Source of the DNA: Oceanicola sp. S124
Lineage (GTDB): Bacteria > Pseudomonadota > Alphaproteobacteria > Rhodobacterales > Rhodobacteraceae
NCBI RefSeq assembly: GCF_000220565.1
Contig: NZ_AFPM01000017.1
Coordinates: 1 to 64,000, forward strand
Reading direction: 5' to 3'
DNA: 64,000 bases
Shown here: piece by piece, positions 4,005 through 10,631 of the stretch
Numbering within the stretch: the first letter of the stretch is position 1
Layout: each line of letters starts with the position of its first letter
Notes under the pieces: generated by a model
Seen by the model: only the letters and a program-made list of their open reading frames with translations
Databases searched by the model: none
What the model was told of the DNA's origin: nothing
Translations under genes and position numbers: made by a program

Positions 4005-4168
4005 GACGCCTGGGGACCTTCGGGGCCCTGTAACATCCGGGTAGTCTGTCAGCGGCGGTACTTCCAACCGCCCGGCAAATACCCAATACATAGCCGCCTC
4101 ACGTGGACCCCGGCCCGACTTTTCCGGACCAAACGAGGGCGGCGCTTGCTAAACGGAAGACAGAAAGC

Positions 4169-6408: not shown

Positions 6409-6822
6409 ATGCTTCAACCGAAACGCACGAAATTCCGCAAGATGCACAAGGGCCGGATCCACGGCCAGGCAAAAGGCGGCTCCGACCTGAACTTCGGGAC
6501 CTTCGGCCTCAAGGCCACCCAGCCCGAGCGTGTGACTGCACGTCAGATCGAAGCAGCCCGCCGTGCCATGACGCGCCACATGAAGCGTCAGGGCCGGGTC
6601 TGGATCCGGATCTTCCCGGATACCCCCGTCACCTCGAAGCCCGTCGAAGTTCGTATGGGTAAAGGTAAGGGGTCGGTCGATTACTGGGCCTGCAAGGTCA
6701 AGCCCGGCCGGATCATGTTCGAGATCGACGGTGTCTCCGAGGGCGTCGCACGCGAGGCCCTGCGCCTGGCGTCGATGAAACTGCCCGTCAAGACCCGCGT
6801 CGTCGTTCGCGAAGACTGGTAA
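6409..6822 (+). CDS. rplP: 50S ribosomal protein L16
   Basis: The 137-residue product is L16, which helps position A-site tRNA and is added late in 50S assembly. The N-terminus [16 protein letters not shown] and the RMGKGKG loop (about residues 81-87) are diagnostic. AAGGAG lies 13-8 bases upstream. It is the last gene of the block: rpmC, its usual next neighbour, is 3.6 kb downstream after a terminator and five other loci. Confidence 0.97.
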
Positions 6823-6828
6823 GCGGAA

Positions 6829-6851
6829 GGCGGGATATCTCCCGCCCTACG
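6829..6851 (+). repeat. REP-like palindrome, copy 2
   Basis: GGCGGG ATATCT CCCGCC followed by CTACG. Both arms carry compensating changes relative to copies 1 and 3 (C/G in place of T/A), so the pairing is kept. It lies directly after the rplP stop. Confidence 0.6.
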
Positions 6852-6859
6852 AAATCGGT

Positions 6860-6894
6860 AACCCCCGGTGCCCATGGCGCCGGGGGTTTTCCTT
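6860..6894 (+). terminator. Terminator after rplP
   Basis: The stem AACCCCCGG (6860-6868) pairs with CCGGGGGTT (6880-6888), with further pairing inside the loop and the tail TTTTCCTTT. It ends the rplB-rplP block. Confidence 0.8.
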
Positions 6895-6971
6895 TGTACG
6901 GCCGGGGGCTGCCGCCCTCTGCCCCTGGTGGGGCCGGAGCAGTGCTTGCCATGGGAGGGGGCAGGAGGGTG

Positions 6972-7137
6972 CCGGGTTCGCCCGGCCCGGCACACCGAGG
7001 CATTCACAGACGGCCGAGCGGCCGAGGTCGAGACTTTCGACCAGCGCGCCGGTGTTCTGGCCGGGCTGGGGCAGCAGGGGCTGCAGCAAGTGGCGGGCGG
7101 GATGGGTGAGGGCCTGGAAGATGGTGTCAGCGAGCAT
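6972..7137 (-). pseudogene. ArsR-type regulator remnant
   Basis: On the minus strand from ATG 7137 the frame reads like the N-terminal two thirds of an ArsR winged-helix regulator: DTIFQALTHPARHLLQPLL, then a GQNTGALVESLDLGRSAV stretch, then CECLGV where families have SKHLxVL. After about 55 residues the similarity stops and the frame becomes low-complexity Pro/Arg sequence. Residues usually conserved, such as the arginines of the PTRRxIL motif and the recognition helix, are altered. I read it as a decayed fragment, divergent from the oxygenase gene at 7253. Confidence 0.4.
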
Positions 7138-7252
7138 GGAGCATGATGCGTCGGGATTGTCCGACATGTCGGCAGGTCCCGACGCATTCGCGCATTTGCA
7201 GCGCGTGGGAATCGCGGTAGGGCGGGGCAGATCCCGCTGCCGGAGGTATGTC

Positions 7253-7873
7253 ATGTCCGAGATCCGCTCTCTTTTCGCCACCCGTCTCTATCGCGCCGCC
7301 CTGAACGAGAAAGGGCCGGGCGTCGATGCCGAGGAGCTTGAGACCTCCTGCTATTCCATCGCCGAGGATGACGAGGCGGGGCAGGAGTGGTGCGAGGCCA
7401 ACGACTATCCGGGCTACACCTCCTATGCCTCGCTGACTGACCTGGCCTGGCGCTTTCCGATCTTCGAGGATGTGAAGGCGGCGCTGGATCTGCATGTCGC
7501 CGCCTTTGCCGATGACCTGGCCTTCGAGCTGGGAGAGGGCAAGCTTGAGCTGGAGGATCTGTGGATCAACATCCTGCCCGAGGGCGGCACCCACAGCTCG
7601 CATATCCACCCGCATTCGGTGATTTCGGGGACGACCTATGTGGCGATGCCCGAGGGCACCTCGGCGCTGAAATTGGAAGATCCGCGGCTTGCGATGATGA
7701 TGGCGGCCCCGACCCGCGCAAGGGATGCCCGGGAAGAGCTGAAGCCCTTCATCTACGTCAAGCCGGCGGTCGGCGAGGTCCTGCTCTGGGAGAGCTGGCT
7801 GCGCCATGAGGTGCCGATGAACATGACCGAAGAGGACCGCATCTCGGTCAGTTTCAACTACAAGTGGGTGTGA
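7253..7873 (+). CDS. TIGR02466-type putative 2OG-Fe(II) oxygenase
   Basis: The 206-residue product matches the family of small putative 2-oxoglutarate/Fe(II) oxygenases often called TIGR02466. The metal-binding cluster GGTHSSHIHPHSVISG is at residues 111-126 (His117 and His119 among its histidines). A distal His185 precedes Arg197 in the last strand, a usual 2-oxoglutarate contact. The start is ATG 7253, with CGGAGG at 7241-7246. The substrate is unknown. The hairpin at 7891-7913 may end its transcript. Confidence 0.75.
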   Translation: MSEIRSLFATRLYRAALNEKGPGVDAEELETSCYSIAEDDEAGQEWCEANDYPGYTSYASLTDLAWRFPIFEDVKAALDLHVAAFADDLAFELGEGKLELEDLWINILPEGGTHSSHIHPHSVISGTTYVAMPEGTSALKLEDPRLAMMMAAPTRARDAREELKPFIYVKPAVGEVLLWESWLRHEVPMNMTEEDRISVSFNYKWV

Positions 7874-7882
7874 GCACCGGTC

Positions 7883-7969
7883 CCGCAGGGCAAACCCTCC
7901 GGGGGAGGGTTTGAGGCGCGAACGGGCGGAGCCCCCTGCCGCCGATACCGCAGGGCAAACCCTCCGGGG
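7883..7969 (+). repeat. 22-bp direct repeat pair with hairpin
   Basis: The 22-bp unit starting CCGCAGGGCAAACCCTCC and ending GGGG occurs at 7883-7904 and 7948-7969. The first copy is part of a perfect 9-bp hairpin (CAAACCCTC 7891-7899/GAGGGTTTG 7905-7913), probably the transcript end of the upstream oxygenase gene. A shorter related piece, CCGCAGGGCTTTGCG, lies near 7987-8001. Confidence 0.5.
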
Positions 7970-8320
7970 ACAGGCTCCGCCGCGAACCGCAGGGCTTTGC
8001 GACGCCTGTCGAGGGCCGGCATCGAAATTGCGGAAAGACCCGTCCCGGTGGTGTTCCCCATGGGGCCACGTTCTTGCGGGCTGGTTGCCCGGCCGTGCCT
8101 CGCGACGCATAGGCCGGGCGGCTTCCCGGGCGCAGGGGCGCCCTGCGCGGACGGCCCGGCGCTGAGCCGGACCGAGAACTGCCTGGGCCCCCGTCGGCGA
8201 ACGAACCCCCGGCGTCCTGTGGTGGGCAGCCCTCACCACGGGCGTGGGGTGGATGGCAATCCACCTTCCCCTTGTCCTGTTTGCGCAGCCGAAGGTGGCG
8301 TCCGCCCGCCCTCCGCTGCG
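7970..8320 (+). other. No recognisable gene (351 bases)
   Basis: This stretch is GC-rich, and the open frames on both strands have Arg/Pro/Gly-rich translations without family features. I see no RNA gene or promoter in it. Confidence 0.5.
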
Positions 8321-8646
8321 TCAGATGAAGCGCGACAGCAGCACCATGGCCGCCAGGGCGCGGGCGAGCCCGGCCACCTCGCGCGGCCCCGGCATTTCCC
8401 GAACCAGCGTGCGCCGATCAGCGCCAGGGTTAGCAGCGTCACCATGGAACGGGCCACGCCCGCGGGGCTCAACAAGATGTGGCGGACCGACCAGAACCTG
8501 CAGACCGCGGAGAGAGCGCAACCCGCGAGCATCAGGGTTGACCAGCCTTTGTGCCCCAGGTCCGCTGCCAGCTTGAGGATGAAACCGCCCAGTATCACGA
8601 CACAGGCCGTCTGGGCTGCAATGGCGCGCCCGAAAAGGCAAGTCAT
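8321..8646 (-). pseudogene. Frameshifted small membrane-protein gene
   Basis: From ATG 8646 the minus strand encodes a hydrophobic protein of three or more membrane segments (TACVVILGGFILKLAADL, then STLMLAGCALSAVC, then MVTLLTLALIGAR). Near 8405-8415 this frame turns into Trp/Cys/Pro-rich nonsense. The -1 frame continues sensibly as LVREMPGPREVAGLARALAA and ends MVLLSRFI at a TGA at 8321. One missing base would restore a protein of about 108 residues. The family is not recognised. It could be a true pseudogene or a sequencing error. Confidence 0.5.
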
Positions 8647-8850
8647 CTGTTCCAACTAGTCATAAAACGATTAGAAACATGCGTGTGCAGGACGGTCCGG
8701 GCGAAATCTGCCCGCCGCCGGGATCTGCACCCCACCACTGCACCCTGGCTGACTCGTCCGTCGGTCATTGAATTTTGCCGCGGCCCCGGGCCTTGGCGTG
8801 AACCCGCTCCGGCCCTCAGTGGCCCTGCCAGCAAGGAAGACCTCTCTGCC

Positions 8851-9324
8851 ATGGATTCCCGCAAGCTCGAGATGACCGTCCTGATGACCCCCGACATGGC
8901 CAACTTCAGCGGCAAGGTGCATGGCGGTGCGCTGCTGAACCTGCTCGACCGCGTGGCCTTCTCCTGCGCCTCGCGCTACTCGCGCCAGTATGCCGTCACG
9001 CTCTCGGTCGACCAGGTGATGTTCAAGGAGCCGATCAACGTCGGCGAGTTGGTCACCTTCCGCGCCAGCGTCAACTACGCAGGTCGCACCTCGATGGAGA
9101 TCGGGATCCGTGTCGAGGCGCAGGAGATCCGCTCGGGCCGGTCCCGCCATACCAATTCGTGCTACTTCACGATGGTTGCGGTTGATGACCAGGGCAGCCC
9201 GGTCGAGGTGCCCGAGCTGCAGGTGCTGACCGAAGAGGAAGAGAAACGCCTGAGCGCCGCGAAGATCCGCAAGAAGCTGCGCCACGAGTTCGCCGAAGAG
9301 ATGCAGAAGGCCGCAAAAGGCTGA
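8851..9324 (+). CDS. Acyl-CoA thioesterase, hotdog fold
   Basis: The 157-residue product is a YciA/BACH-type acyl-CoA thioesterase that hydrolyses acyl-CoA to free acid and CoA in the cytoplasm. The hotdog helix GKVHGGALLNLLDRVAF (about residues 21-37) includes the catalytic Asp33, and the substrate-binding strands follow (DQVMFKEPINVGELV). The start is ATG 8851, with AAGGAAG at 8833-8839. Longer in-frame versions are unlike the family. It stands alone between terminators and the next promoter. Confidence 0.82.
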   Translation: MDSRKLEMTVLMTPDMANFSGKVHGGALLNLLDRVAFSCASRYSRQYAVTLSVDQVMFKEPINVGELVTFRASVNYAGRTSMEIGIRVEAQEIRSGRSRHTNSCYFTMVAVDDQGSPVEVPELQVLTEEEEKRLSAAKIRKKLRHEFAEEMQKAAKG

Positions 9325-9352
9325 CCCGCGCTCCGGTTGTCCCCGGTTGTTC

Positions 9353-9381
9353 TTGACCCGGCAGGCCGCCCCGGCTACCCC
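9353..9381 (+). promoter_or_regulatory. Promoter of a leaderless leader-peptide transcript
   Basis: TTGACC (9353-9358), a 17-base spacer and TACCCC (9376-9381). The predicted transcription start falls at about 9387-9389, on or next to the ATG at 9388. The leader peptide would then be translated from a leaderless mRNA, as known for the trp leader of Sinorhizobium. Confidence 0.5.
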
Positions 9382-9387
9382 AAGGGC

Positions 9388-9438
9388 ATGACGCATCAGG
9401 CCGCCTTTATCGCTCAAGCCTATTACCCGCTGTATTAA
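9388..9438 (+). CDS. Tyr/Phe-containing leader peptide (16 aa)
   Basis: The frame encodes MTHQAAFIAQAYYPLY and a TAA stop. It has one Phe and three Tyr, two of them adjacent near the end, and it stops 103 bases before a prephenate-dehydrogenase-like gene. There is no well-spaced Shine-Dalgarno, but the predicted mRNA start coincides with the ATG. The Tyr codons overlap the first of four alternating complementary segments. This fits an amino-acid-sensing attenuator peptide. It is inferred from sequence alone. Confidence 0.6.
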   Translation: MTHQAAFIAQAYYPLY

Positions 9439-9481
9439 CAGCGGACCCTTCACCTTGTCTCCGCTGTTTCCAAGCCAGCGG
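9427..9481 (+). promoter_or_regulatory. Candidate tyrosine attenuator (segments 1-4)
   Basis: Four segments alternate: CCGCTGT (9427-9433), AACAGCGGA (9437-9445), TCCGCTGTT (9460-9468) and CAGCGG (9476-9481). Pairing 1:2 is 7 bp, 2:3 is 9 bp and 3:4 is 6 bp. Segment 1 lies in the Tyr-Tyr-Pro-Leu-Tyr codons, so a stalled ribosome would free segment 2 to pair with 3. The 3:4 hairpin has no U-run, so termination is not obvious. Downstream, CCTGG/CCAGG (9512-9516/9528-9532) could hide the AGGA of the next gene. Two direct repeats AGACCGGACCC lie at 9483-9493 and 9503-9513. Confidence 0.55.
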
Positions 9482-9541
9482 TAGACCGGACCCCCACAGA
9501 TCAGACCGGACCCTGGCCCCTCTCCTACCAGGACCCCGATC

Positions 9542-10282
9542 ATGCCTCCTTCCCTCTCCCTGTTCGGTTTTGGCGCCTTCGGCCAGCTTCTGGCGCCGTT
9601 GCTGGCCACCGATACCCGCCTCACCATCTGCGATCCCCTCCGAGGCGCCGAGGCGCTGGCGGCGGGCTACGAGGTGGTCAGCACCGAAATCGCCGCCCGC
9701 GCGGATATCCTGCTGTTGGCAGTGCCGCTGCCTGTGCTGCCCGGGCTGTTGCAGCAGCTTGCCCCGCATCTGCGGCCCGGGCAGGTGGTGATCGACACCT
9801 GTTCGGTCAAGGAAGAACCGGCCCGGTTGATGCGCGCCCTGCTGCCCGATGGCGTGGTTCTGATCGGCAGCCATCCGATGTTCGGGCCGGTCTCGGCCCG
9901 CGAGGGGCTGCGCGGGTCGCAGGTGGTGCTCTGTCCGCTGAGGGGCGGCGGCGGGCAGCGCCTTGCGGCCTACCTGCGCGCCCGTCACGGCCTGCGGGTG
10001 ATCGTCACCACCCCGGAACAGCACGACGCCGAAGCGGCGCTGAGCCAGGGGCTGACCCATCTTCTGGGCCGCGCCATGGCCGGGATGGGGCCGGCGCCGC
10101 GCATCCGCACCCGCTCGTTCGAGCTGATGATGGAGGCGCTGTCCATGGTTGCCGGCGACGCCCCGGAGGTCTACGACGCGGTGACCGCCGGCAATCGCCA
10201 CCTCGGTCCGCTGCGGGCCCGGCTGGCGGCGGCCCTGGCCCCCGAGGGGGGAGGCGGCGCGCCGGACAGCACGGCGGGCTGA
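9542..10282 (+). CDS. Prephenate dehydrogenase-like protein
   Basis: The 246-residue protein resembles the NAD(P)-dependent prephenate/arogenate dehydrogenase family, which makes the tyrosine precursor. The Rossmann motif FGFGAFG is at residues 8-14. The family signatures DTCSVK (85-90) and GSHPMFGP (109-116) are present, with the catalytic histidine in the latter. The C-terminal dimerisation domain is shorter than in full-length TyrA (about 280-300 residues), so the exact activity is open. It is preceded by the Tyr leader peptide, which supports a tyrosine role, and followed by rpmC. Confidence 0.75.
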   Translation: MPPSLSLFGFGAFGQLLAPLLATDTRLTICDPLRGAEALAAGYEVVSTEIAARADILLLAVPLPVLPGLLQQLAPHLRPGQVVIDTCSVKEEPARLMRALLPDGVVLIGSHPMFGPVSAREGLRGSQVVLCPLRGGGGQRLAAYLRARHGLRVIVTTPEQHDAEAALSQGLTHLLGRAMAGMGPAPRIRTRSFELMMEALSMVAGDAPEVYDAVTAGNRHLGPLRARLAAALAPEGGGGAPDSTAG

Positions 10283-10427
10283 GGCTGCTCTGCCTTTTTC
10301 GCCCTTTCCGTGTTGACCCGCAGGGCGTTCGGGCGTATTGGCAGCGCTCATTGTTCTACATAACCCACCGGATTCGCGGGTCACCCAACCCAGGGGCCTA
10401 CCGGTGCAAGGAAGGAAAGGAAGCGCC

Positions 10428-10631
10428 ATGAGCGCCAAAGAGCTTCGCGAGAAGACTCCTGACCAGCTTCGTGAAGAGCTGGCAGAGCTGAAGAAAGCCC
10501 AGTTCAACCTTCGTTTCCAGCAGGCCACCGGCCAGCTTGAGAACGCTGCGCAGATGCGCAAGGCCCGTCGTGACGCGGCCCGCGTGCTGACCGTTCTGAA
10601 CGAAAAAGCTGCCCAGGCAGCTGGCGAATAA
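10428..10631 (+). CDS. rpmC: 50S ribosomal protein L29
   Basis: The 67-residue product is L29, a helical-hairpin protein at the tunnel exit next to L23. The start is ATG 10428 ([18 protein letters not shown]), with AAGGAAAGG at 10412-10420. The family motif [13 protein letters not shown] is at about residues 25-37. It begins the third ribosomal block and is followed by rpsQ after 11 bases. Confidence 0.96.

Follow-up and report, generated by a model that had tools for sequence, protein, structure and literature searches.

A conserved tyrosine-codon leader upstream of a TyrA-type gene in Oceanicola sp. S124 and related Alphaproteobacteria: a probable translational attenuator

The TyrA gene and its leader in Oceanicola sp. 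S124

The window, the whole stretch of 64,000 nucleotides that was analysed (contig NZ_AFPM01000017.1, positions 1 to 64,000), carries on its forward strand, at 9542-10282, a gene for a short TyrA of 246 amino acids. The protein was assigned to the prephenate/arogenate dehydrogenase family by a match to the prephenate-dehydrogenase nucleotide-binding domain PF02153 (E 3.6e-20). It also matched NF006409 (E 4.3e-33), below the cut-off of that family. The closest solved structure was soybean prephenate dehydrogenase 1 (profile E 1.2e-34). In the available part of PMC5681985, the TyrA proteins of plants, spirochaetes and some alpha- and deltaproteobacteria form one clade, and the two bacterial clade members assayed there, both with an acidic residue at 222, proved specific for arogenate. 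Asp206 was invariant in 12 aligned proteins and aligns with index 222 of the soybean chain, the chain numbering being assumed to be that of the paper. The TyrA of the window is predicted to be an arogenate dehydrogenase. In the seven other gene carriers of the genus a second, weaker match of the TyrA search was found elsewhere in the genome (26-35% identity), and the gene would therefore seem to encode an isozyme induced by starvation, alongside a housekeeping enzyme.

The gene is located in an S10-type ribosomal-protein operon (6409-10631), which is split between the rplP-like and rpmC-like genes by a thioesterase gene, the TyrA gene and other non-ribosomal genes. By eye, rpmC also adjoins the gene at two loci of relatives (L002, L006), and other sequence lies upstream at two more (L007, L008). 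The Rfam ribosomal protein leader L2-Alphaproteobacteria (RF03142) was found at 4012-4166 of the window with 47.3 bits.

Upstream of the TyrA gene, and like it on the forward strand, lies a leader with a predicted promoter at 9353-9381, consisting of TTGACC (9353-9358), a spacer of 17 nucleotides and TACCCC (9376-9381). The promoter is a weak match to the consensus, and a promoter scan of the window listed none at the leader. The ATG of a short open reading frame, MTHQAAFIAQAYYPLY, begins seven bases past TACCCC. The frame (9388-9438; ATG 9388-9390, TAA 9436-9438) has 16 codons, including one for Phe and three for Tyr, and is leaderless if transcription starts as predicted. The promoter, the reading frame and the letters of four alternating RNA segments described in an initial annotation of this DNA were all found in place when the window was checked. 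In 66 leaders compared, a TTGA beginning 35-39 bases 5' of the leader ATG was the first such match in 62, a count that includes leaders collected by a rule requiring a nearby TTGA (18 of the 66). From this spacing, transcription is expected to start on the leader ATG or immediately beside it. Together with the recurrence of the peptide upstream of orthologs, the spacing supports the leaderless peptide that had been predicted. Peptide length was 15-17 in 63 of the 66 leaders. Folding of the window leader on its own was mildly better than that of shuffled sequences (z -1.86; 9 of 200 shuffles equally good).

Distribution of the leader and conservation of its tyrosine codons

A protein search identified the ortholog in 8 of 22 genomes of the genus; the seven besides that of the window were the next best matches, with 48-82% identity. 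All eight carriers have the leader, in each case with YYPL before the last residue of the peptide. In the family, represented by 394 genomes nearly all of different genera, the gene was present in 25 and the leader in 24 of these (22 with Tyr-Tyr, one with Tyr-Arg in L051 and one with Tyr-Phe in L052), the exception being L068. At the level of the class, 13 of 385 genomes carried the gene and five of these the leader, three of which had already been counted in the family search. A second family had the gene in 34 of 199 genomes; four carriers yielded no locus, and the leader was present at 21 of the 30 loci viewed. The nine leaderless loci (L134, L138, L142, L144, L145, L147, L151, L152 and L155) all belong to one genus, g695. 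At several of them a small lipoprotein-like reading frame with Cys residues was observed by eye upstream of the gene, in the place of the leader.

Further loci were opened by name, and the leader was present at 10 of 17, from Pseudooceanicola, Maritimibacter, Paracoccus, Shimia, Pseudophaeobacter, Methylobacterium, Thalassospira and further relatives. It was not seen by eye at L040-L045 and L047, which are six Acidobacteria-like or spirochaete loci and one distant Paracoccus paralog. The loci from Acidobacteria-like genomes and a spirochaete hold looser relatives of the TyrA. Plasmid copies of the gene in Paracoccus, Roseibium and Haematobacter carry the leader, which was present at five of six plasmid loci opened from 20 records. 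Thalassospira belongs to the Rhodospirillales and Roseibium to the Hyphomicrobiales, and thus the leader also occurs in other families and orders. From the counts across genomes it follows that the gene is patchy and that the leader usually travels with it. The initial annotation had named a lack of conservation of the peptide and segments at orthologous loci as grounds for giving up the idea; the comparison was run and the conservation is there. The role in tyrosine synthesis given to the target gene is also supported.

Several loci were outside the set of 66 leaders for want of a leader (L068, L075-L082, the nine g695 loci and L164). L071 was excluded because it lies at a contig edge, and its leader was counted as L100. 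Duplicates were counted once (L031 as L003, L032 as L002, L033 as L005, L046 as L004 and L039 as L049), and re-fetched loci likewise.

A covariance model built from 35 leaders found 27 loci outside the training set at 33-62 bits, among them three close relatives of training rows (L127-L129), and L163 at 14 bits. It gave no match in the nine g695 loci or L164. Searched against the family, the model matched nine genomes beyond the 24 carriers at E 1e-5 or better. The weak family matches were set aside as cases of this leader: L113 and L114 proved to be leaders of a different kind, L116-L119 resemble chance matches when inspected by eye, and five further matches gave no locus. The genome of Oceanicola sp. 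S124 has 12 weak places, of which the one read, L084, looks coding. Because of its conservation upstream of orthologs, the covariation of helix 1:2 described below and the loci found by the covariance model, the leader is a real feature and far from a chance observation.

Two Tyr codons of the window leader (TAT TAC, 9421-9426) form the predicted sensor of tRNA-Tyr. A Tyr-Tyr pair stands directly before segment 1 in 59 of the 66 leaders; in the other seven the second Tyr is absent, and Tyr is accompanied by R, R, H, F, N, S or P. The 66 leaders were gathered for having at least one Tyr in the leader, and a less biased figure for Tyr-Tyr is therefore 22 of 24, from the family carriers with a leader. 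The pair is 3 or 4 codons from the stop codon in all 66, and the first Tyr codon lies 105-130 nucleotides (median 116) from the gene start, a near-constant distance that fits an output at that start. As in trp-type attenuators, the reading frame holds codons for the end-product amino acid, here ahead of a TyrA-family gene. The leader had been annotated as a Tyr/Phe sensor. The Tyr part stood, whereas the Phe position is not fixed and Phe is absent from several leaders (e.g. L002, L007); "Tyr/Phe sensor" is too wide a term, and the conserved element is Tyr-Tyr.

Two alternatives that do without sensing of charged tRNA bear on these codons. The sequence of the peptide itself might arrest the ribosome, for example through free tyrosine bound in the tunnel. 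Pro-rich ends can stall ribosomes, and in many leaders Pro directly follows Tyr-Tyr (YYPL). However, the kept part of the peptide is Tyr-Tyr only, while the residues after it vary widely (PLY, PLP, PQLR, APSS, TLTT, GPAT, RRVP) and the 1:2 pairing is retained, so that nascent-peptide arrest is highly improbable. Even less probable is a protein-bound or trans-acting RNA element in which ribosomes sense nothing and the short reading frame is incidental. The Sinorhizobium meliloti RNA rnTrpL does act in trans, according to the part of PMC7298713 available, but here the Tyr codons are conserved in frame, and both codons are used at the second position (TAC in 37 leaders, TAT in 22).

Six alternating segments and the ribosome-binding site

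Segment 1 (CCGCTGT, 9427-9433) pairs with segment 2 (AACAGCGGA, 9437-9445), which can pair instead with segment 3 (TCCGCTGTT, 9460-9468). Segment 3 is in turn an alternative partner of segment 4 (GCCAGCGGT, 9474-9482), which extends the CAGCGG at 9476-9481 of the initial annotation. Helix 1:2 covaries. In 35 leaders 86.4% of its cells were paired, compared to 74.8% in shuffled alignments, and 24 cells showed double changes compared to 6.3; the covariation of 0.328 (0.110 shuffled) was reached in 0 of 500 shuffles, and slid versions of the helix gave at most 0.086. Helix 3:4 had 14 double-change cells compared to 5.5 in shuffles (0 of 500 shuffles; 35 leaders), with a covariation of 0.194 in register and a similar 0.196 when slid by +3. 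The pair counts of 3:4 are probably too low, as segment 3 of one group is out of place in the MAFFT alignment A3. Consensus folding of A3 yielded 7 pairs only.

An alignment-free partner-swap test was also performed, in which the own segment pair of each leader was compared with pairs whose partners had been swapped among 28 dissimilar leaders. Own partners were clearly favoured for 1:2 (z -6.1) and 3:4 (z -4.9), and no covariation was detected for 2:3 (z -0.9, p 0.17). Pairing of 2:3 is strong, with -13.2 kcal/mol for own and -12.8 kcal/mol for swapped partners; swapped partners that fit nearly as well, without covariation, are as expected for an invariant core. The leader thus combines mutually exclusive 1:2, 2:3 and 3:4 helices of the trp type, of which 1:2 and 3:4 covary and 2:3 is invariant, and the alternating segments 1-4 proposed from the window alone are borne out by recurrence and compensatory changes.

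Taken together with the Tyr pair, segments 1-4 show the geometry of a classical trp-type attenuator of transcription; 3:4 would then serve as an intrinsic terminator despite a poor tail, and one leader, the Thalassospira-like L073, has a convincing T6 after 3:4. No intrinsic-terminator-like site was found around the window leader, and the lack of a U-run at 3:4, pointed out in the initial annotation, was confirmed. A lax T-rich tail after 3:4 was present in 7 of the 66 leaders and absent in 59. What a U-run version looks like can be seen at L114 (about 1440-1700, G134:C142), another leader of the family, where a peptide with a Tyr triplet, MTTHSRSNFYYYPRSS, precedes a hairpin and ATTTTTAT ahead of a GNAT-like acetyltransferase gene; judged by these letters, it appears to be a tyrosine attenuator that acts on transcription of a different gene. 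An attenuator that ends transcription at 3:4 is therefore very unlikely at the TyrA gene, and, as the terminator is lacking, the leader is not classed as a trp-type transcription attenuator.

Two further segments, absent from the initial annotation, connect segment 4 with the start of the gene. Segment 5 (ACCGGACCCTGGCC, 9505-9518) is complementary in the window to segment 4 (GCCAG-C-GGU). A part of it, CCUGG at 9512-9516, is also complementary to CCAGG at 9528-9532, within segment 6 (CCAGGA, 9528-9533), which includes the Shine-Dalgarno sequence AGGA of the gene. Segment 5 is the partner of segment 4 in the proposed ON state and of segment 6 in the OFF state. A 5-bp hairpin that had been noticed near the gene start corresponds to the 5:6 helix. 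A repeat pair, AGACCGGACCC, also noticed, fared less evenly: the first copy (9483-9493) is not kept in L004-L008, and the second (9503-9513) overlaps the kept segment 5. As an element of its own the repeat pair was dropped, since its first copy is not conserved.

Examples of the 4:5 pairing are CGACCGCUGGC with GCCGGCGGUCG in L160 (11 pairs including one G-U) and GCGACGCUGGCC with GGUCAGCGGUUGC in L054 (one bulge); the 31 leaders displayed for this pairing are hand-chosen examples of one pairing type. In L007, CCGG is present in segments 4, 5 and 6 alike. Fifteen leaders from two families, picked because they show the Shine-Dalgarno helix, have GACCU(U/C) opposite (A/G)AGGUC over the Shine-Dalgarno sequence, with 97.8% paired and with U-A, U-G and C-G at one pair. 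In L130, L135, L136, L139 and L146 the start codon itself is paired, by eye, as CAUCG(CG) with (CG)CGAUG.

Both new helices covary. In the swap test with 28 dissimilar leaders, 4:5 gave z -2.7 (p 0.003) and 5:6 z -5.5 (p 0.0002), compared to p values of 0.053 or more for six non-adjacent control pairs. With GC-matched swaps of 26 leaders, three window choices and ten controls, the adjacent pairs held (4:5 p 0.002-0.01). Among those controls, 3:5 was also significant in all three window sets (p 0.002-0.035) and 1:4 in one (p 0.045), and relatedness therefore inflates the swap test somewhat. Shuffling of the segment 5 zone lowered the number of 5:6 pairs (p 1e-8), and more such pairs formed with 3:4 forced than with 2:3 forced (p 2e-6), both over the 28 dissimilar leaders. 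A hairpin that would sequester the ribosome-binding site of the TyrA gene, as in translational attenuators, is thus supported by the 5:6 swap test, the shuffle comparison and the pair counts in the 15 leaders picked for the helix. For 4:5, pairing compared with shuffles gave p 0.025 over 66 leaders and 0.08 over the 28 dissimilar ones. When the partner region was shuffled, 4:5 and 5:6 each reached p <0.05 in 11 of 38 leaders; combination over 26 dissimilar leaders by Fisher's method, which assumes independence, gave p 2e-5 for 4:5 and 1e-5 for 5:6. The 4:5 pairing was weak in one subgroup of the Rhodobacteraceae (L055, L059-L061, L064, L065 and L067; p 0.38-0.78).

Accessibility of the ribosome-binding site was calculated with one or the other helix forced. 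In the window, the unpaired fraction from the Shine-Dalgarno sequence to the start was 0.75 with 2:3 forced and 0.30 with 3:4 forced. Over the 66 leaders the mean opening shift was +0.057 (45 positive, p 0.0015), and with the segment 5 zone shuffled it was -0.017. In the 28 dissimilar leaders 16 shifts were positive, which was not significant (p 0.12). When the downstream RNA was folded without constraint, the two conditions did not differ (0.455 starved and 0.437 replete; higher in 17 of 36). The relay architecture is thus well supported; good support for a thermodynamic switch is limited to the window and a part of its relatives. The order of folding during transcription is expected to matter.

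The same Tyr sensor could also act through Rho, which would load on free C-rich RNA (9482-9529) and terminate transcription before the gene. In the stretch from segment 4 to the Shine-Dalgarno sequence, C outnumbers G in 62 of the 66 leaders (mean 0.38 and 0.22; window 0.48 and 0.19), and the accessible part of PMC12218461 puts Rho forward as a candidate in the attenuation by uORFs of S. meliloti. C-rich stretches are, however, frequent in GC-rich genomes, and termination by Rho leaves unexplained both the covariation of segment 5 with segment 4 and the Shine-Dalgarno sequence and the nearly fixed distance to the gene start. As the sole explanation Rho is rather unlikely. It may act jointly with a translational switch, because untranslated RNA invites Rho, and Rho-dependent termination is a possible helper of that switch as well as its main rival.

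Proposed regulation and comparison with known systems

A tyrosine-codon leader-peptide attenuator with translation initiation as its output is the likely reading of the locus. The ribosome-binding site is tied to 3:4 by the two extra segments, and control is therefore more likely exerted at translation initiation. The most likely form uses six segments, with 2:3 plus 4:5 as the ON state and 3:4 plus 5:6 as the OFF state. In the model that we infer, the transcript would begin on the leader AUG or right beside it, and a 70S ribosome would initiate there. With sufficient Tyr-tRNA, the ribosome would proceed to the stop codon and cover segments 1 and 2, so that 3:4 could form; segment 5 would then be available to segment 6, and the Shine-Dalgarno sequence, or the start codon in some relatives, would be hidden. 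When Tyr-tRNA is short, the ribosome would wait at the Tyr pair and cover segment 1, allowing 2:3 and then 4:5 to form, which would leave the ribosome-binding site of the tyrA-type gene open. The positions of the ribosome, the direction of the switch, the response to tyrosine and the translational output all belong to this model. In these marine and soil bacteria the gene is probably switched on when ribosomes run short of tyrosine.

A possible sister system was found before cysS. The weak model match L113, from another genus, is a Cys-Cys leader, MTRDAIRICCITR, that ends in CGC TGA before cysS, and the genome of Oceanicola sp. S124 has MNGSIAIITGCCITC upstream of cysS (L165, G000:C207). A Cys-Cys reading frame was present upstream in 19 of 30 cysS loci from a search of 36 genomes. 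Within the genus it was found at 17 of 22 cysS loci, all 17 ending in TGC TGA (e.g. MKTARIIICCICAC); besides L165 these are L167, L168, L170-L174, L176, L177, L179-L181, L184-L186 and L189. Two cysS loci outside the genus (L183, L194) have Cys-Cys frames unlike those of the genus. No U-run was seen by eye at the leaderless-looking Cys-Cys leaders. The Cys-Cys leader before cysS is possibly a cysteine translational attenuator.

With somewhat less confidence, though on balance in favour, we propose an Alphaproteobacterial class of leaderless codon-pair leaders in which a six-segment relay acts on translation initiation. It would comprise Tyr-Tyr leaders with plant-type TyrA, spread over three or more orders and present on plasmids, and Cys-Cys leaders at cysS, and would include the first tyrosine leader-peptide attenuator, a Gram-negative, translation-level counterpart of trp attenuation. 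A conserved tyrosine version acting on translation would show that, with two segments added, trp-type attenuation logic can be redirected away from RNA polymerase and towards the ribosome-binding site. The leader and gene form a portable unit, and the covariance model is able to find new cases.

No tyrosine leader-peptide attenuator was recognised in the full-text literature searched, from which most subscription journals lie outside, and no tyrosine case was recognised there among amino-acid translational attenuators. Rfam 15 gave no match in the leader at gathering score, and three matches below the threshold were at chance level. In the translational attenuators of erm and cat genes, a ribosome that stalls in the leader reading frame shifts the RNA to an alternative pairing and so frees a ribosome-binding site that was sequestered. 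The same is proposed here; the stall in erm and cat comes from a drug together with the nascent peptide, and not from a lack of charged tRNA. Among the Actinobacteria, the LEU element and an ileS T-box that sequesters the Shine-Dalgarno sequence are similar as candidates for leader-peptide or tRNA sensing with Shine-Dalgarno control, but they use a pseudoknot or a T-box (PMC1262725, available part). The same part of that source gives no conserved RNA structure for the tyrosine genes covered there and names T-boxes as their RNA control elsewhere.

The trpLE(G) leader of S. meliloti is also Alphaproteobacterial, with a leaderless uORF of 14 codons, codons for the product amino acid and two exclusive RNA structures, as described in the accessible parts of PMC7298713 and PMC10117765. 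It differs in having Trp codons and a transcription terminator, compared to the Tyr codons and the Shine-Dalgarno-sequestering hairpin found here. The leaderless poly-Cys uORFs of mycobacteria have contiguous codons and respond to the amino acid (Canestrari 2020, as cited in the available parts of PMC9031893 and PMC13236596), and they are said to act by translation attenuation (PMC13236596, in part). They belong to another phylum and concern another amino acid, and the likeness is drawn from the description in the citing papers only; on that description they appear closest in spirit to the Tyr leader. By analogy, the Tyr leader would work like a trp attenuator at its sensor and like an erm-type attenuator at its output.
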